NCBI GenBank assembly: GCA_946803585.1
Contig: CAMPEQ010000007.1
Span: 94,451 to 158,450, forward strand
Direction: 5' to 3'
Length of the DNA: 64,000 nt
From: an uncultured Actinomycetes bacterium
GTDB taxonomy: Bacteria; Actinomycetota; Actinomycetes; S36-B12; UBA10799
Every line of letters starts with the position of its first letter. Position 1 is the first letter of the stretch. The notes under the pieces are model-generated. The model did no database searches and was not told the DNA's origin. It saw only the letters and a list, made by a program, of their open reading frames with translations. A program made the position numbers and the translations under genes. This document shows positions 1,572 through 17,275 of the stretch, piece after piece.

Positions 1572-4361
1572 TTAATCCAATATCGCGGTGTAAGACACGA
1601 CTCCGCGCTGCAAACCTTCGACTGCGGCGCGCGCGCTCTGGCGGACATCGCGCTCTGGACTCGCCTCTCCGATTTGCCCCAACAGATCTATCAACTGTCG
1701 GCACCAGCGAACAAAGTCACCCGGTGCGAGTTCACTCTCCCGCAAGACCACGTGGAGTGGCTCGCCCTTAACCCACTCGAACGCGGCCATCGAGAACCCG
1801 GCGTTGGGCTGGCGGGTGAAGTCAAGATGGTGGTTGGACTCACGTTCGGCCAACTCGATCGCGAGCTCGGACTCGTCGGCCAAAGCCGCGCGAAGAGATG
1901 GTGACTTCGGCACTGGTGGGGTGGCGCCACCCTGGTCTGGGCTTCGGCTCTCGAATACCAGGGCTGCCGCAGCACCAGCTAACTCAGCCGGATCGAGTCC
2001 CTCCCAGATCCCTTCGCGCAGACACTCGGCCGCGAGCAAGTCCTGGTCGGAGTACAGGCGCGCCAGGAGTGCTCCCGCCGGCGTAGGACTGAGCTCACCG
2101 TCATCGTTCTTGGCCAAATAGCCCAAGCTCTCAAGCAGGGCACAGACTCGGTCAAACTGCCGCGCAATGGTGTTGGTTCGGCTCTCAACCTTCGTTCGTA
2201 GTTGTCGGGTCTCTCGCTCAAGACGGTGGTAGCGCTCCCCCCACCGGGCGTGGGCTTCACGATCGTCACACCCGTGACAAGGATGCGCTCGAAGGTCTGC
2301 CCGCAATTGCGCAATCTCGGCGTCCTCGCCGCTAGCTTCAGTGCGCTTGCGGGGGCGCTTCAAATCAAGTGAAGCGGTCTTCTCCGTGAGGGTGCGCGCC
2401 AGGTCACGACGCCAGTTCGCGCTGCGGGAATCGAAGTTGCGCGGGACCTTCATCCGGGCTATCGCCTCAATACCGTGAGGGGTATCCGAGGTTGAGACCT
2501 TCTTGACCCGCCGCTCGAGGGTCAGTACACCCACTCGGGGTTGCTCATCGTTGGGCCGGGAAGGCTCTACGACAACGGCTGGACCGACTCGACGCCCCGT
2601 CGGCAGAACGACAATATCGCCCACCCGTAGCCGGGCAATAGCTGCAGCGCTGGCTGCCCGGCGGTTCGCTGCCGAGTTCTTTGAGATCGAACGTTCGCGG
2701 GCTGCGAGCCCGGCGCGAAGCTCTGCGTACTCGCTGAAGTCGCCGAGGTGGCATTGCATGGACTCTCGGTATCCGACGAGGGCATCCTCGTGCTTACGTA
2801 TCTGCCGGGCGATCCCGACGACGCCCGCGTCAGCTTGATACTGCGCGAAGGATGTCTCGAGTAGTTCTCTGGCCGCCTGGACTCCGAGACGGGTGATGAG
2901 ATTGATTGCCATGTTGTAGGAGGGGCGAAACGATGACCGCAGCGGATAGGTGCGCTTTGACGCGAGCCCAGCCAGGATCTGGGGATCAAGTCCGGTGTGC
3001 CAGGTGGTGACCGCATGACCCTCGGTGTCGATTCCACGACGCCCGGCACGACCCGTGAGCTGGGTGTACTCCCCCGCCGTGATGTCTGCATGAGCCGAGC
3101 CGTTCCACTTGACGAGGCGCTCCAAAACCACACTTCGGGCCGGCATATTGATCCCTAGCGCCAATGTCTCGGTAGCAAACACCGCCTTGGTCAGTCCAAG
3201 ACTGAAAAGCTCCTCGACGGTCTCTTTGAACATGGGGAGCATGCCGGCATGATGGGCGGCCAGACCCCGTTCGAGGGCATCACGCCACTCGAAGTAGCCC
3301 AGTACGTTGAGATCGTCGCTGGGCAGGTCACGACACCGCTCATCGACGTACTCACGGATACGGATCCGTTCCGGTTCGGTGGTCAGGCGAAGTCCGGAGT
3401 TCAAGCACTGCTTTACGGACTCGTCGCAACCTCTCCGGCTGAACACAAAGAAAATCGCCGGCAGCAATTCATAGCGGTCAAGGCGCTCGAGTACGACCGA
3501 ACGCGGTAGGTATCCCCCACCCTGACGTCGCGGCGGTCCGGATGCTTTGCGGCCCCGACCTCGATTGCCGCGGTACGACCCGCGGGAAGCTCGAGTAGCC
3601 CGCGCGTCGTCGACAGCGAGTTGGATGAGTTCAGGATTGACCGCAGCTTCAGCCTGGTCGTCAACGTCGGCGAAGAGGTCAAGTAATCGCCGCCCCGCCA
3701 ACACGTGCTGATGCAGCGGGATGGGTCGCCTCTCCTCAACAATGATCTCGGTGTTTCCGCGGACTTGGTCTAGCCATGCCCCGAACTCCTCGGCGTTACT
3801 GACCGTCGCTGATAGCGCAACCAAGGCGACATGTTCTGGTAGATGGAGGATGACTTCTTCCCAGACTGGTCCCCGCTGACGATCCGCCAAGTAGTGGACC
3901 TCGTCCATCACTACATGAGACAGCGATGCGATCGCATCCGAACCGTCGTACAGCATATTTCGGAGTACTTCGGTCGTCATGACCACAACCGGCGCATCGC
4001 CGTTCAACACGGTGTCCCCGGTTAACAATCCGATCTTCTCTGGACCGTAACGCTCAACGAGGTCTCGGTACTTCTGATTACTCAACGCCTTTATTGGCGT
4101 CGTATAGAACGCGCGGGTGCCCTGCGCTAACGCCAAGAAGATCGCGAACTCACCAACGACGGTCTTACCGCTACCTGTTGGAGCGGCGACTAACACGCTC
4201 TTGCCTGATTCTAAGAACCTGCAGGCTTCGACTTGATACGTATCGAGCGCAAACTCGTAGCCGCCTTGAAAATCCGCCAACGCGGTCTTGGAGTGGGCAG
4301 CGCGTCGCTTTGCCGCTGCGTAGTGTTGCGCGGCAGTCGTCTGGTTCCCGTCGTTCGTCAT
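1572..4361 (-). CDS. helY: HelY-type DEAD/DEAH-box RNA helicase (Ski2-like)
   Basis: An ATP-dependent helicase of 929 residues, the usual size for actinobacterial HelY, a Ski2/Mtr4-like protein. Walker A is APTGSGKT (residues 60-67), motif II is DEVH (153-156), SAT appears as ALSATVSN, and motif VI is QLTGRAGRRG. A Ski2-type C-terminal region follows. It is the last gene of the leftward run tatA-tatC-dagK-helY, 25 bases after dagK, so probably co-transcribed. Its substrate is not shown by the sequence; a role in RNA processing is inferred from the family. The position beside the 5'-3' exonuclease and tat genes matches the mycobacterial order. Confidence 0.92.
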   Translation of the reverse strand: MTNDGNQTTAAQHYAAAKRRAAHSKTALADFQGGYEFALDTYQVEACRFLESGKSVLVAAPTGSGKTVVGEFAIFLALAQGTRAFYTTPIKALSNQKYRDLVERYGPEKIGLLTGDTVLNGDAPVVVMTTEVLRNMLYDGSDAIASLSHVVMDEVHYLADRQRGPVWEEVILHLPEHVALVALSATVSNAEEFGAWLDQVRGNTEIIVEERRPIPLHQHVLAGRRLLDLFADVDDQAEAAVNPELIQLAVDDARATRASRGSYRGNRGRGRKASGPPRRQGGGYLPRSVVLERLDRYELLPAIFFVFSRRGCDESVKQCLNSGLRLTTEPERIRIREYVDERCRDLPSDDLNVLGYFEWRDALERGLAAHHAGMLPMFKETVEELFSLGLTKAVFATETLALGINMPARSVVLERLVKWNGSAHADITAGEYTQLTGRAGRRGIDTEGHAVTTWHTGLDPQILAGLASKRTYPLRSSFRPSYNMAINLITRLGVQAARELLETSFAQYQADAGVVGIARQIRKHEDALVGYRESMQCHLGDFSEYAELRAGLAARERSISKNSAANRRAASAAAIARLRVGDIVVLPTGRRVGPAVVVEPSRPNDEQPRVGVLTLERRVKKVSTSDTPHGIEAIARMKVPRNFDSRSANWRRDLARTLTEKTASLDLKRPRKRTEASGEDAEIAQLRADLRAHPCHGCDDREAHARWGERYHRLERETRQLRTKVESRTNTIARQFDRVCALLESLGYLAKNDDGELSPTPAGALLARLYSDQDLLAAECLREGIWEGLDPAELAGAAAALVFESRSPDQGGATPPVPKSPSLRAALADESELAIELAERESNHHLDFTRQPNAGFSMAAFEWVKGEPLHVVLRESELAPGDFVRWCRQLIDLLGQIGEASPERDVRQSARAAVEGLQRGVVSYTAILD

Positions 4362-4386
4362 TGACGACAGGCTACGGGTTGTGGCA

Positions 4387-5286
4387 TCAGGACGTGGGTG
4401 CGAAGACGTTCACAGCGCCGGGACGCACGGTCACCGTAGCGGGAACGGTGCCGATTCGTTCGCCGTCGGCGTAGACGATCTGGTTCGGTGCGTTGATCAC
4501 TGCTTTGGTGAACCGGTGCTGCGTGACGTACTCATGTTTGGTGTGCGTTCCCTTGAAGACAGATGGAAAGGCGCGAACGAACTGGCCCTTTCCGACGGCG
4601 GCGAGGACTGTCATGTCCAGGAGTCCGTCTGCCACGTTCGCATCGGGACAAACCTTCATACCGCCACCGTAGGAGATCCCGTTGCCGATGGCGACGAGCA
4701 TTGCCTCCTGTTTGAGCTCCGCACCGTCGATTGTCAGATCGAATGGAACCGGCTGAAACACCCGAAGCTCGGCCAAGGTCGCGATCAGGTACCGGGCTTG
4801 TCCGTGCGGCCACGTCATGTCGTTTGCGCGCTCATTAACTTCAGAGTCGAATCCAACCGACAAGATTCCCAGGAAGTAGCGGGACTGCTCATCGGCGGTA
4901 GCGACGTGCCCGCAGTCCACCAGGCGAGTCTTGCCATCAGCGATCACATCGGCAGCGGCGGTTATGTCCTTCATCGGGATCTCGAGAGTGCGGGCGTTGT
5001 CATCGCCGGTTCCCATCGGCAAGATCCCCAACGGAGTATCAGTCTCGGCGACTGCCTGAAGCGCGAGGTTGAGCGTGCCGTCGCCGCCGCACGCAACCAG
5101 CGCGTCGGCACCTTCGCGGACTGCGACCCGAGCTAGCGAAGCTGACTCCTCAGCGCTGCCCCCGACGATTTCTGTGACTCGCAGACCACGTTCGCGAAGT
5201 CGGCGTGCAGCAATTGGTGCGCTACGGGCTCCACGACCCCGACCAGAACTTGGATTCACCAGCATGGCGATATTGCGTTGGCTCAT
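4387..5286 (-). CDS. diacylglycerol kinase family lipid kinase
   Basis: A soluble lipid kinase of the DagK/YegS type, about 299 residues. The nucleotide-binding region shows VNPSSGRGRG near the start, then the diagnostic LVACGGDGTLN and LPMGTGDDNAR. The C-terminal beta domain has YGGGMKVCPDA, usual for the family. It should phosphorylate diacylglycerol or a related lipid at the membrane, recycling DAG to phosphatidic acid. I chose the ATG at 5286, which gives MSQRNIAMLVNP; a GTG at 5304 would extend it by six residues. It follows tatC by 21 bases and precedes helY. The exact lipid substrate cannot be read from sequence. Confidence 0.88.
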   Translation of the reverse strand: MSQRNIAMLVNPSSGRGRGARSAPIAARRLRERGLRVTEIVGGSAEESASLARVAVREGADALVACGGDGTLNLALQAVAETDTPLGILPMGTGDDNARTLEIPMKDITAAADVIADGKTRLVDCGHVATADEQSRYFLGILSVGFDSEVNERANDMTWPHGQARYLIATLAELRVFQPVPFDLTIDGAELKQEAMLVAIGNGISYGGGMKVCPDANVADGLLDMTVLAAVGKGQFVRAFPSVFKGTHTKHEYVTQHRFTKAVINAPNQIVYADGERIGTVPATVTVRPGAVNVFAPTS

Positions 5287-13042: not shown

Positions 13043-14560
13043 CTATTGAACGGTACGCAGTGCAATCAGTAGATCTTTAGCTGTTGGGCAATCATTCAGT
13101 AAGGCGCTGACATGATCGCGGGTGCCGCGCAGCGGATCGAGGGTGGGAACTCGTTGTAGTGAAGGTTGCCCTTGAACATCAAAGACGACCGAATCCCACG
13201 AGGCTGCCGCGATGGACTCTGGATACCGGCGCAGGCACTCGCCTCGAAACCATGCGCGCGTGTCCGGCGGAGGATCTGTTACTGCTCGTTGTATCTGCTC
13301 GTCGGTAGTTAGTCGCTGCAAGCTCCCACGCCGTTCAAGTTTGCGGGCTAGCCCCTTGCCTTCTGTTAAGTCGCTGTACTGAAGGTCAACTAGTTGGAGT
13401 CGCGGATCAGTCCAACTCAAGCCGTCACGCCGCCGATAGCCATTGAGTAGTTGGAGCTTGGCGACCCAATCAAGCTCGGTAGCTAGCGCCATTGGGTCGG
13501 CTTCGAGCTGGTCGATAACCCTTAGCCATTGTGCAATGACGTCTCTAGTTTGCTCATCGCTTTGATCGCCTTCTCTACTTTCGATGAAGCTGGCGACCCG
13601 TTCCGCGTAGCTGCGCTGCACCTCCAACGCCGTCATCTTGCGTCCATCAGCGAGTTCAAGTTTCTGCGTTAGGTCCGGATCATGGGAGACCTGGTGGATC
13701 TGCTCAACTGGATCAGCGAGCGAGAGGTCATCGAGCGTGACCCCGGCTTCAATCAACTCCAGGACCAGGGAGGTCGTTCCCATCTTCAAATACGTCGCGA
13801 GGTCAGACAGATTCGCATCACCCACAATCACATGCAGACGGCGATGGAACTGTGGGTCGGCGTGGGGCTCATCGCGTGTATTGATTATTGGCCGCTTGAG
13901 AGTGGTCTCGAGCCCAACCTCTACCTCGAAGAAGTCAGCCCGAGAACTAAGTTGGAACCCATCGGTGCGCCCGTCTTGACCGCGGCCGACCCTGCCAGAT
14001 CCCACGATCACTTGGCGAGTGACAAAGAACGGCAACAGTCCCGTGGTGATATCGGCGAATGGCGTTGAGCGGTTCATCAAGTAGTTCTCGTGGGTACCGT
14101 ATGAGGCGCCCTTGTTATCTGTGTTGTTCTTGTAGAGCCGGATCTGCGGCGCACCTGGTGTGAGCCGAGCGAGTTCTGCCGCCTTGGCCATCACCAGCTC
14201 ACCGGCTCTGTCGTAGATGACGGCATCTAGTGGTGTGAGGACTTCCGGACTGGAGTACTCCGGGTGTGCGTGGTCGACGTAGAACCGGGCACCGTTGGTG
14301 AGAACGGAGTTGGCCATACCGAAGTCATCGTCGGTCAACTGGGAGGGGTCAGCGTCCGCCCGGGAGAGATCAAATCCCCGCGCGTCACGAAGTGGTGTCT
14401 CTTCGTCGTAGTCCCACCTGGTCTTGGCGGCTGCACCAGGAAGTTGGCTGGCATAGGCATTGACAACTTGAGATGAAGCCAGCATCGAGTTGACGTTCGG
14501 GTGGCCAGGCACCGAGATTCCGTACTCGGTTTCGATCCCCATGACTCGAGTGACGCCCAT
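13043..14560 (-). CDS. dop: Dop, depupylase / Pup deamidase
   Basis: The PafA paralogue that removes Pup from substrates, 505 residues. Family marks are [15 protein letters not shown] at the N-terminus and [18 protein letters not shown], with the conserved Asp. Between them is the acidic Dop loop (around [15 protein letters not shown]), which PafA lacks. With a Pup that already ends in Glu, its remaining job would be depupylation. It is separated from pup by 156 bases and follows dsbB by 28 bases. The ATG at 14560 is preferred over the internal ATG at 14542 because actinobacterial Dop proteins carry the short leading peptide. Confidence 0.95.
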
Positions 14561-14588: not shown

Positions 14589-15251
14589 CTAGTTCTTGAT
14601 CCCCAAGTCGTAGAGCAACTCATAGCGAGACGGATCATCGGGAAGTACCCAGTTGAAGCCTTGTTCCGTGAAGATCAGGATTACGTTGATGATCACGATG
14701 GCGATAAAGATCCAAATAAGGATCCGGCTGATCCACAGGCTAGCTGCGCCCTTTGGCATGACTGGGAACGTTTGCTTGGTCAAGGTGAGCATGACCGCGC
14801 TGTAGACCAAAACCACGAAGAAGGTGACGAGCGCCCAAGTGTAGAGGTGCAGGCCGAGGAGTGGATCGCCATAGCCAGGGTCATCAGGCTGGATATGCAG
14901 AAGAACTTGCCGCGTAGAGACCAGCGTGCCCAGCAGCGCGCCAATCATCATGAGGCCGAACGTTCGCGCGTACTTGTCGGGAGTCAGCAGACCCTTGCGG
15001 GCCAATCCCACAACCCAGGTGGCCGCGATTGCCACCAGGATCATGCAGAACCGTTGAAGGGTACACAGCGGGCATGGCAGATCGCCCTGGCTGAACTGAA
15101 TGAAGATCGCGCTGGCGATTACTCCGGCGTAGCCAACGGCCACGACATGTGGGAACCAGAACCCAACGTAGTTCCAGAATCCTGGGGCTGGAGTTGCTTC
15201 GGATTGTTCGATGGGTGCGCCGTCGGTACTAGGCGTTGTCGTATCGCTCAT
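14589..15251 (-). CDS. DsbB-like disulfide bond formation membrane protein
   Basis: A 220-residue membrane protein with about five hydrophobic helices. The motif LPCPLCTLQRFCMI matches the quinone-proximal CxxC of DsbB-family thiol oxidases, which pass electrons from a disulfide-forming partner to quinone. In contrast to E. coli DsbB, I see no second cysteine pair in the later external loop; only a third Cys (RFCMI) follows. The start is one base after the stop of a 52-residue DUF5993 gene, so the two are coupled. DsbB-DUF5993 pairs occur in other actinobacteria. The partner oxidant (DsbA or VKOR type) is not in this window. Confidence 0.78.
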   Translation of the reverse strand: MSDTTTPSTDGAPIEQSEATPAPGFWNYVGFWFPHVVAVGYAGVIASAIFIQFSQGDLPCPLCTLQRFCMILVAIAATWVVGLARKGLLTPDKYARTFGLMMIGALLGTLVSTRQVLLHIQPDDPGYGDPLLGLHLYTWALVTFFVVLVYSAVMLTLTKQTFPVMPKGAASLWISRILIWIFIAIVIINVILIFTEQGFNWVLPDDPSRYELLYDLGIKN

Positions 15252-15252
15252 A

Positions 15253-15411
15253 TCAGAAGCTCAAATCCAGTGCGGAGGAGACATGGTAGTTGAAGAGCAG
15301 TGCCGTGAGGACGACACCGAGAAGGAATACCGGGACGACAATCTTGGCCGGCGCTCCCTTCATCGCAAAAATGGCTCCAACCAGGAGCACGATGAGAATG
15401 ATGGTGTCCAC
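15253..15411 (-). CDS. DUF5993-like small membrane protein
   Basis: A 52-residue gene read directly from the minus strand. It starts with GTG at 15411 (MDTIILIVLLVGAIFAMKG), has two hydrophobic segments separated by KGAPAKI, and ends ALDLSF followed by TGA. Its stop lies one base from the ATG of the dsbB-like gene, which strongly suggests translational coupling. Size, topology and neighbour match DUF5993 proteins that accompany DsbB homologues in actinobacteria. The function is unknown; it may be a small subunit or assembly factor of the thiol oxidase. Confidence 0.7.
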   Translation of the reverse strand: MDTIILIVLLVGAIFAMKGAPAKIVVPVFLLGVVLTALLFNYHVSSALDLSF

Positions 15412-15598: not shown

Positions 15599-17275
15599 TC
15601 AGAGGTATTGGCCGGTATTTGCAACTGTGTCGATCGAGCGTCCGGCTTCTTTTCCCTTCTTGCCCTGAATGAGGGTCCGAATGAAAATGATCCGCTCGCC
15701 CTTCTTCCCCGAGATACGAGCCCAGTCATCTGGGTTCGTCGTGTTTGGGAGATCCTCGTTCTCTCTAAACTCGTCAACGCACGCCGAGAGCAAGTGGTTC
15801 ACGCGAATGCCCTTGTGGCCGGTGTCCAAGAAGTCCTTGATGGCTGACTTTTTGGCACGAGCAACGACATTCTCGATCATCGCCCCAGAGTTAAAGTCCT
15901 TGAAGTACAGGACCTCTTTGTCACCGTCGGCGTAGGTCACCTCAAGGAATCGATTCTCGTCATCTTCGGTGTACATCCGCTCCACTCCGCGGTGGACCAT
16001 CTCTTGCACTGTGAGGTCGGGATCGTTGCCGTTGGCACGCAGGTCTTCTTCGTGTAGCGGCAGGTCAGACGTGAGATAGATCGACATAATGTCGGCCGCA
16101 GCCTGCGCGTCCGGCCGCTCGATCTTAATCTTCACGTCCAGCCTTCCGGGGCGCAGAATTGCTGGGTCAATCATGTCTTCTCGGTTCGAGGCGCCGATCA
16201 CAATCACGTTCTCGAGACCCTCAACACCATCAATCTCAGAGAGTAGCTGCGGGACGATCGTGTTCTCGACGTCGCTGGATACCCCAGTGCCGCGAGTACG
16301 GAACAGTGAGTCCATCTCGTCAAAGAAGACGATGACAGGCATTCCTTCGCTCGCCTTCTCTCGGGCGCGTTGGAACACCAGTCGAATGTGGCGTTCTGTC
16401 TCTCCGACGTACTTGTTAAGTAACTCTGGGCCCTTGATATTGAGGAAGAACGATCGATGCTGATCGGTACCTTCTTTAGCGGCGACCTTCTTTGCTAGCG
16501 AGTTCGCAACCGCCTTGGCGATCAGCGTCTTTCCGCAGCCGGGTGGGCCATAGAGCAGGATCCCCTTCGGGGCCCGGAGTTTGTGCTCGGCATAGAGGTC
16601 GGCGTGCAAGTACGGGAGTTCGACGGCGTCGCGGATTGCCTCGATCTGCGGGCCGAGACCACCGATGTCTTCGTAGTCGATATCAGGGACCTCTTCAAGA
16701 ACGAGTTCCTCGACTTCCGCCTTTGGAATCCGCTCGTAAACATATCCCGATCGAGACTCCATGAGCAGGGAGTCGCCGGCCCGAATTGGTTCGTCGATAA
16801 GGGGCGCAGCAAGTAGAACAACGCGTTCTTCATCGGTCCGGCCGACAACGAGTGCACGCTCGCGGTCTTCTAGAACCTCTTTGAGTGTGACGATCTCGCC
16901 CTGGCGCTCAAACCCACATGCAGCGACGACGTTCATCGCCTCGTTGAGCATCACTTCCTGGCCGGGCTGAAGATTCTCTGCCCCGACGGAGGGACTGACC
17001 GTTACGCGCATCTTGCGGCCGCTCGTGACGATGTCAGCCGTGCCATCGTCGTAGTTGTCGAGAAAGACGGCGTATCCGCTTGGCGGCTCAGCGAGGCGGT
17101 CAACTTCAGCCTTGAGGTCGATTATCTGTTCGCGAGCGATGCGCAACGTATCGGCAAGGCGTTCTGAGCGCAGTTGCGCGCTGTTCAGTTGTCGACGAAC
17201 TTCGTCTAGGTCACCTTCGGTAACTCGCGGGCGACCGTCTGGACGCGGCGTTCCGTATCCGTCATCAGGTGACAT
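15599..17275 (-). CDS. arc: proteasome-associated AAA ATPase ARC/Mpa
   Basis: The hexameric unfoldase that recruits pupylated proteins, 558 residues. An N-terminal coiled coil (about 18-62) binds Pup. Two OB-type domains lie at about 65-190, then the AAA module with Walker A GPPGCGKT (243-250) and Walker B FFDEMD (317-322). The protein ends in GQYL, the C-terminal tail that docks into the PrcA ring and opens the gate. It lies upstream of the DUF5993-dsbB-dop genes, with a 187-base gap that may hold a second promoter. All key motifs look intact. Confidence 0.96.

Follow-up and report, generated by a model that had tools for sequence, protein, structure and literature searches.

What functional unit do two small membrane genes form in the midst of a Pup-proteasome locus, and how could a DsbB-like protein that has a single periplasmic cysteine pair work? 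Both questions arise from a 64,000-nucleotide stretch of actinomycete DNA, referred to here as the window, in which a DUF5993 gene and a DsbB-like gene lie between arc and dop. The preliminary description of the locus took the two genes for a thiol-oxidase pair embedded among Pup genes and supposed that the small protein might make up for the cysteines that its partner lacks. The features on which the analysis rests are the following.

15599..17275, minus strand: ARC/Mpa proteasomal AAA ATPase, the upstream neighbor of the pair.
15253..15411, minus strand: DUF5993 gene with a GTG start, encoding 52 amino acids with two predicted transmembrane helices; PF19455 match.
15283..15285, minus strand: codon of His43 of DUF5993, a near-invariant residue (100/101) at the predicted outer end of the second helix.
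14589..15251, minus strand: DsbB-like gene of type II, encoding 220 amino acids with five predicted transmembrane helices; PF02600 match.
15063..15074, minus strand: CPLC codons, of which Cys60 and Cys63 form the active-site pair on the quinone side; Gln66 and Arg67 come after them.
14853..14915, minus strand: shortened TM3–TM4 (P2) loop, residues 113–133, without cysteines and with the conserved pattern RQxxLHIxPxDPGYG..GLH.
14625..14669, minus strand: C-terminal tail behind TM5, residues 195–209, with Gln197 and Leu203 at the type I cysteine sites.
13043..14560, minus strand: Dop (Pup_ligase family), the downstream neighbor of the pair.

The four genes are co-directional, with DUF5993 upstream of the DsbB-like gene and a single base (15252) between them, and the base composition of the pair is that of its neighbors. 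The coordinates and the Pfam matches confirm a 52-residue membrane gene one base away from a DsbB-like gene, both between arc and dop. The DUF5993 protein scores 41.5 bits against PF19455 (cut-off 27) and covers profile positions 1–50 of 50, i.e. the full length. The DsbB-like protein scores 49.1 bits against PF02600 (cut-off 22.1), with only profile positions 6–88 of 148 matched.

The two-gene pair, and not the Pup locus, is the real unit. A scan with an alignment of the DsbB subfamily, using one genome per species, gave 80 loci, some of them on MAG contigs, in Actinomycetota, Planctomycetota, Pseudomonadota, Bacillota, Bacteroidota, Myxococcota, and Verrucomicrobiota. One locus (L069) ends at a contig edge; in all of the 79 testable loci DUF5993 lies immediately upstream of the DsbB-like gene, a count that measures how often a DsbB-like gene has a DUF5993, as the loci were found via the DsbB-like protein. 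In about 31 of the 79, the stop codon of one gene shares 1 nt with the start codon of the next. Among 60 near relatives, own genome included, DUF5993 adjoins the DsbB-like gene in 17 of 17 carriers. The reverse test, from DUF5993 to its neighbor, was made in 398 genomes drawn randomly from Pseudomonadota: 16 have DUF5993, with a DsbB-like gene adjacent in every one (16/16). Of the co-occurrence of DUF5993, DsbB, and dop that the preliminary description had proposed to look for, the DUF5993–DsbB part is thus conserved, and counts of 79/79, 17/17, and 16/16 exclude chance adjacency. Of 296 Actinomycetota genomes, only 2, the window's own among them, score above the cut-off of the DUF5993 Pfam model, so the occurrence there is patchy. 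Neither DsbA, nor a copper protein, nor any other third gene was found as a conserved neighbor in the 80 loci, and a DMT transporter lies upstream of the pair in one Serratia and one Salmonella plasmid only.

The cysteines of the DsbB-like protein divide the subfamily into two types. Cys60, Cys63, and Arg67, the last being the equivalent of Arg48 in E. coli DsbB, are invariant in all 105 type I and type II sequences, and Gln66 is near-invariant. Across these 105 members the TM3–TM4 loop, which in E. coli DsbB bears C104 and C130, is short and holds no conserved cysteine. A profile alignment to E. coli DsbB omits the C104–C130 loop and rejoins at LGLEMPQW/LGLHLYTW behind it; the usual P2-loop cysteine pair is absent because the loop is deleted. 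The earlier observation that the window protein lacks the second periplasmic pair was correct and extends to the whole subfamily. In type I, the tail behind the fifth helix bears a cysteine pair of its own, CGxxxC (e.g. ECGSGQCADNPVIY), and the two tail columns corresponding to residues 197 and 203 of the window protein hold Cys in 29/29 and 27/27 sequences. The type II tail matches that of type I, typically as E-x-G-F-x-W-x-LPDDP-x2-Y, without cysteines in these columns; the commonest residues there are Glu and Leu, and the window protein has Gln197 and Leu203. Among the 76 type II sequences, no cysteine other than the two of CPLC is fully conserved. A hidden second pair, sought by better alignment, is thus found at the C-terminus of the sister proteins and nowhere in the window protein.

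Type I occurs in Gammaproteobacteria and Betaproteobacteria, and in one family (f5) and part of another (f3) of the window's own order. Type II is found in the window and in Mycobacteriaceae, Streptomyces, Nocardia, Salinispora, Microbacteriaceae, Lactobacillaceae, Alphaproteobacteria, and Planctomycetota. A tree built without the tail places the two types on either side of one branch, and its rooting with canonical DsbB involves extremely long outgroup branches. Pair members reside on plasmids of Serratia, Pantoea, Salmonella, Pandoraea, and Legionella, and two distinct type I contigs were the only ones found among viral contigs. Neither the Salmonella pair nor its DsbB was matched in E. coli genomes or phage records, and a plasmid tblastn gave no match to the 52-residue DUF5993, a query that is too short and divergent for this purpose. 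In our reading the pair is a horizontally mobile accessory unit.

Several individual loci merit separate mention. The Serratia plasmid pQE32 carries a DUF5993 ORF (L019:3801-3959) without annotation, in a gene table (PLSDB) that is incomplete; it exemplifies a small gene that may escape annotation. Vibrio campbellii (L020) has tandem type I DsbB-like copies, at 2932-3570 and 3956-4495, with DUF5993 directly before the second. In a Gemmataceae MAG (L061:2399-3946) the DsbB-like ORF continues in frame into an apparent glycerophosphodiester phosphodiesterase domain and may be a fusion that arose naturally. Five genomes of family f25 (G085, G115, G247, G269, and G311) give marginal DUF5993-profile matches of 22–24 bits, below the cut-off, inside ORFs of 511–633 amino acids (e.g. 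G115:C1:969084-969212), which may be due to chance or to an embedded DUF5993-like segment. Three loci titled Bifidobacterium breve (L059, L060, and L066) cluster with freshwater actinobacterial and mycobacterial sequences, and these names look wrong. A MAG contig labeled Hyphomonas (L130) carries a pair nested in a Planctomycetota clade, either by transfer or by mis-binning.

The complex was modeled with AlphaFold2 on read-through fusions, for which we chose genomes whose two genes happen to share a reading frame and translated across the first stop codon. The modeled pairs are those of a genus-mate (L054, not the window protein itself) and of a Bacillota member (L099). The predictions, from alignments composed mostly of unpaired rows and with a program that packs helices readily, reach pTM values of 0.85 and 0.86 in the two phyla, with a pLDDT of about 93–98 for the DUF5993 helices, which in the genus-mate span residues 2–17 and 22–43. 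By our own arithmetic from the number of ordered residues, an unplaced DUF5993 would limit the pTM to about 0.7–0.75 at most. The observed values therefore imply that DUF5993 is placed relative to DsbB, which suggests that it docks on the DsbB core; the modeling proposed in the preliminary description thus yields a predicted complex for these two fusions. The DsbB core of the genus-mate superimposes on E. coli DsbB (2zuq) with Z 11.8 and rmsd 2.6 over 122 residues, and its DsbB part on 6wvf with Z 11.3. The latter structure is also the top Foldseek match (prob 1.00, E 0.02). Z values of this size can arise by chance among helical bundles, but taken together with the sequence match they make the assignment to the DsbB fold safe. 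Searches of the PDB by sequence gave only weak matches of the subfamily profile to E. coli DsbB and nothing for DUF5993.

Charge distributions indicate how the two proteins may be oriented. The inter-helix loop of DUF5993 has a mean net charge of +2.5 and is positive in 100 of 101 sequences, so both ends of the protein should lie outside, by the quinone/CPLC face. In the DsbB-like protein the TM2–TM3 loop has a charge of +1.5 to +1.9 and the C-tail one of about –2.3. From these loop charges the predicted topology has the C-tail and His43 outside, together with CPLC. His43 is the only near-invariant residue of DUF5993; in the sequence, T/S comes after it and then L-x-L-S/N-F at the extreme end.

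On balance, we favor the reading that the pair is an accessory two-subunit, quinone-linked putative thiol oxidase that would work without a cysteine relay, which the sequences and models make reasonably probable. The catalytic subunit would be a five-helix DsbB-like thiol:quinone oxidoreductase, retaining the CPLC-x2-QR quinone site without the second periplasmic loop and its DsbA-facing cysteine pair, and the small subunit would be the two-helix DUF5993. In type I, the extra fifth helix would carry the tail with the replacement CGxxxC pair to the outside; in type II, the tail is present and the cysteines are absent. DUF5993 is predicted to pack on the catalytic subunit in such a way that His43 and the conserved LxLSF tail face the side of CPLC and the quinone; the small subunit probably shapes or proton-couples the quinone/thiolate site there. 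We regard His43 as the best candidate for the contribution of the small subunit, be it proton or quinone coupling. A thiol substrate would give its electrons straight to CPLC, from which they would reach (mena)quinone without an internal relay, and the pair would work beside the housekeeping VKOR–DsbA route.

The literature on two enzymes bears on this scheme. In α-DsbB, quinone is the reaction partner of the P1 pair and DsbA that of the P2 pair; the CCSS variant can still be reoxidized by quinone but no longer oxidizes DsbA (PMC3839904). VKORC1, an analog with respect to the quinone site, functions without its loop cysteines (PMC5732223). By analogy, type II proteins should be able to pass electrons from CPLC to quinone. 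If α-DsbB is a guide, the lack of a second pair implies no oxidation of DsbA, and hence another substrate or an altered mechanism; a donor other than ordinary DsbA seems more likely than direct attack by DsbA.

The main alternative is that the type II pair directly re-oxidizes a DsbA-like protein at CPLC and thus constitutes a second oxidase for ordinary disulfide formation. The DsbB fold and the quinone-site residues are retained, the genome encodes two DsbA-family proteins, one of them membrane-anchored and located beside lgt, and type I keeps an outside second pair, as expected of a DsbA oxidase. However, the α-DsbB results speak against oxidation of DsbA by an enzyme without the second pair, no DsbA gene is a conserved neighbor, and in actinobacteria, which are described as using VKOR in place of DsbB (PMC11208910, PMC12421883), DsbA is already served by VKOR (PMC12421883). 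We therefore consider this alternative rather unlikely. The search for a DsbA or VKOR partner that the preliminary description proposed found both in the window's genome: besides the DsbA-like proteins there is a separate VKOR with cysteines in both expected places, so the pair would add to, and not replace, the usual actinobacterial VKOR–DsbA route. In the set of relatives, VKOR is present in 15 of 17 DUF5993 carriers, compared to 24 of 43 non-carriers, and a canonical DsbB is also present in all four alphaproteobacterial carriers checked. As judged from this gene content, the pair is an extra putative oxidase in most carriers. Two genomes (G008 and G025) have the pair and no VKOR match; in these it may be the main quinone-linked thiol oxidase, with a role beyond an accessory one.

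A role as a sensor of redox or quinone state, or as an envelope-stress protein rather than a high-turnover oxidase, appears improbable. It would fit the one expression result found: in a copper-sensitive strain of Erwinia amylovora, copper strongly induces a DUF5993 gene (log2FC 3.35 and 4.83) along with envelope-stress genes (spy, rprA, and colanic acid genes; PMC12542790). A thiol oxidase would be expected to respond to stress just as much, however, and the active-site residues are conserved as in enzymes.

The thiol oxidase reading can be extended, with considerably less assurance: type II pairs may possibly be widespread, undescribed single-disulfide two-subunit thiol:quinone oxidoreductases, independent of DsbA, that act on a substrate without a thioredoxin fold (e.g. 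a small thiol or persulfide) and to which DUF5993 lends a catalytic histidine in trans. That DUF5993 would instead provide a missing redox-active group in trans, as its small size, obligate presence, and membrane location might suggest, has a negligible likelihood, since 66 of 101 DUF5993 proteins are free of cysteine, no cysteine column is conserved, and DUF5993 also accompanies the type I proteins, which have a second pair. DUF5993 thus supplies no redox pair, and the cysteine count in these 101 sequences rejects the notion that it fills the cysteine gap.

The idea that the pair is a functional part of the Pup-proteasome system fares just as badly, as gene order contradicts it, and we reject it. 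The pair does lie co-directionally between arc and dop in the window's own genus (G001-G003) and in one sister genus (G008), but only there; among the 80 loci elsewhere a genus-mate alone has this position, and the pair occurs in unrelated contexts in Bacillota, Planctomycetota, and Pseudomonadota. Eight other genomes, namely G009 (of the same family), G011, G013, G014, G015, G016, G018, and G019, have dop immediately after arc, and two of these (G009 and G014) are carriers that keep the pair elsewhere in the genome. An association with pup, dop, and arc is thus not conserved across lineages, and the pair came to lie between arc and dop by a lineage-specific accident.

What remains is a DUF5993–DsbB pair that is real and conserved, a variant of the DsbB kind, and without description in the literature searched; a search for DsbB proteins without the second pair returned nothing on a DUF5993-paired subfamily. 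Published descriptions give DsbB enzymes two cysteine pairs that are completely conserved (PMC4555120). The present protein falls outside this four-cysteine definition, and we therefore call it DsbB-like. With E. coli DsbB (PF02600) it shares the four-helix core, a CxxC at the outer end of TM2 (C41–C44 in E. coli), the Arg four residues past the second Cys, and a probable quinone site. It differs in the deletion of the P2 loop with Cys104 and Cys130, in the fifth helix with an outside C-terminus, in the obligate DUF5993 partner, and in a second pair that is either placed in the C-terminal tail (type I) or absent (type II). VKOR (PF07884) is likewise a quinone-linked CxxC membrane enzyme, and the actinobacterial form also has five helices (PMC4555120, PMC12421883); however, the window protein has no PF07884 match at E ≤ 1 in the Pfam scan, and the helix order of VKOR differs according to the literature. 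DsbI (NF050065) and other DsbB paralogs share the DsbB-like core, but the NCBIfam DsbI profile gives only a weak match of 34.5 bits against a cut-off of 800, and the window protein lacks the β-propeller extension, is of another size, and has the DUF5993 partner. The 52-residue protein is a clear full-length member of DUF5993, a family that carries no assigned function and is named in a single paper of the literature searched. A protein of ~50 residues always accompanies this branch, and a likely role can now be assigned to it. The existence of a DsbB-like branch in actinobacteria and other phyla breaks both the four-cysteine statement and the statement that VKOR stands in place of DsbB. The branch also shows that the relay pair may be located elsewhere in the protein or be lacking altogether, and it provides a natural test of the purpose of the second pair.
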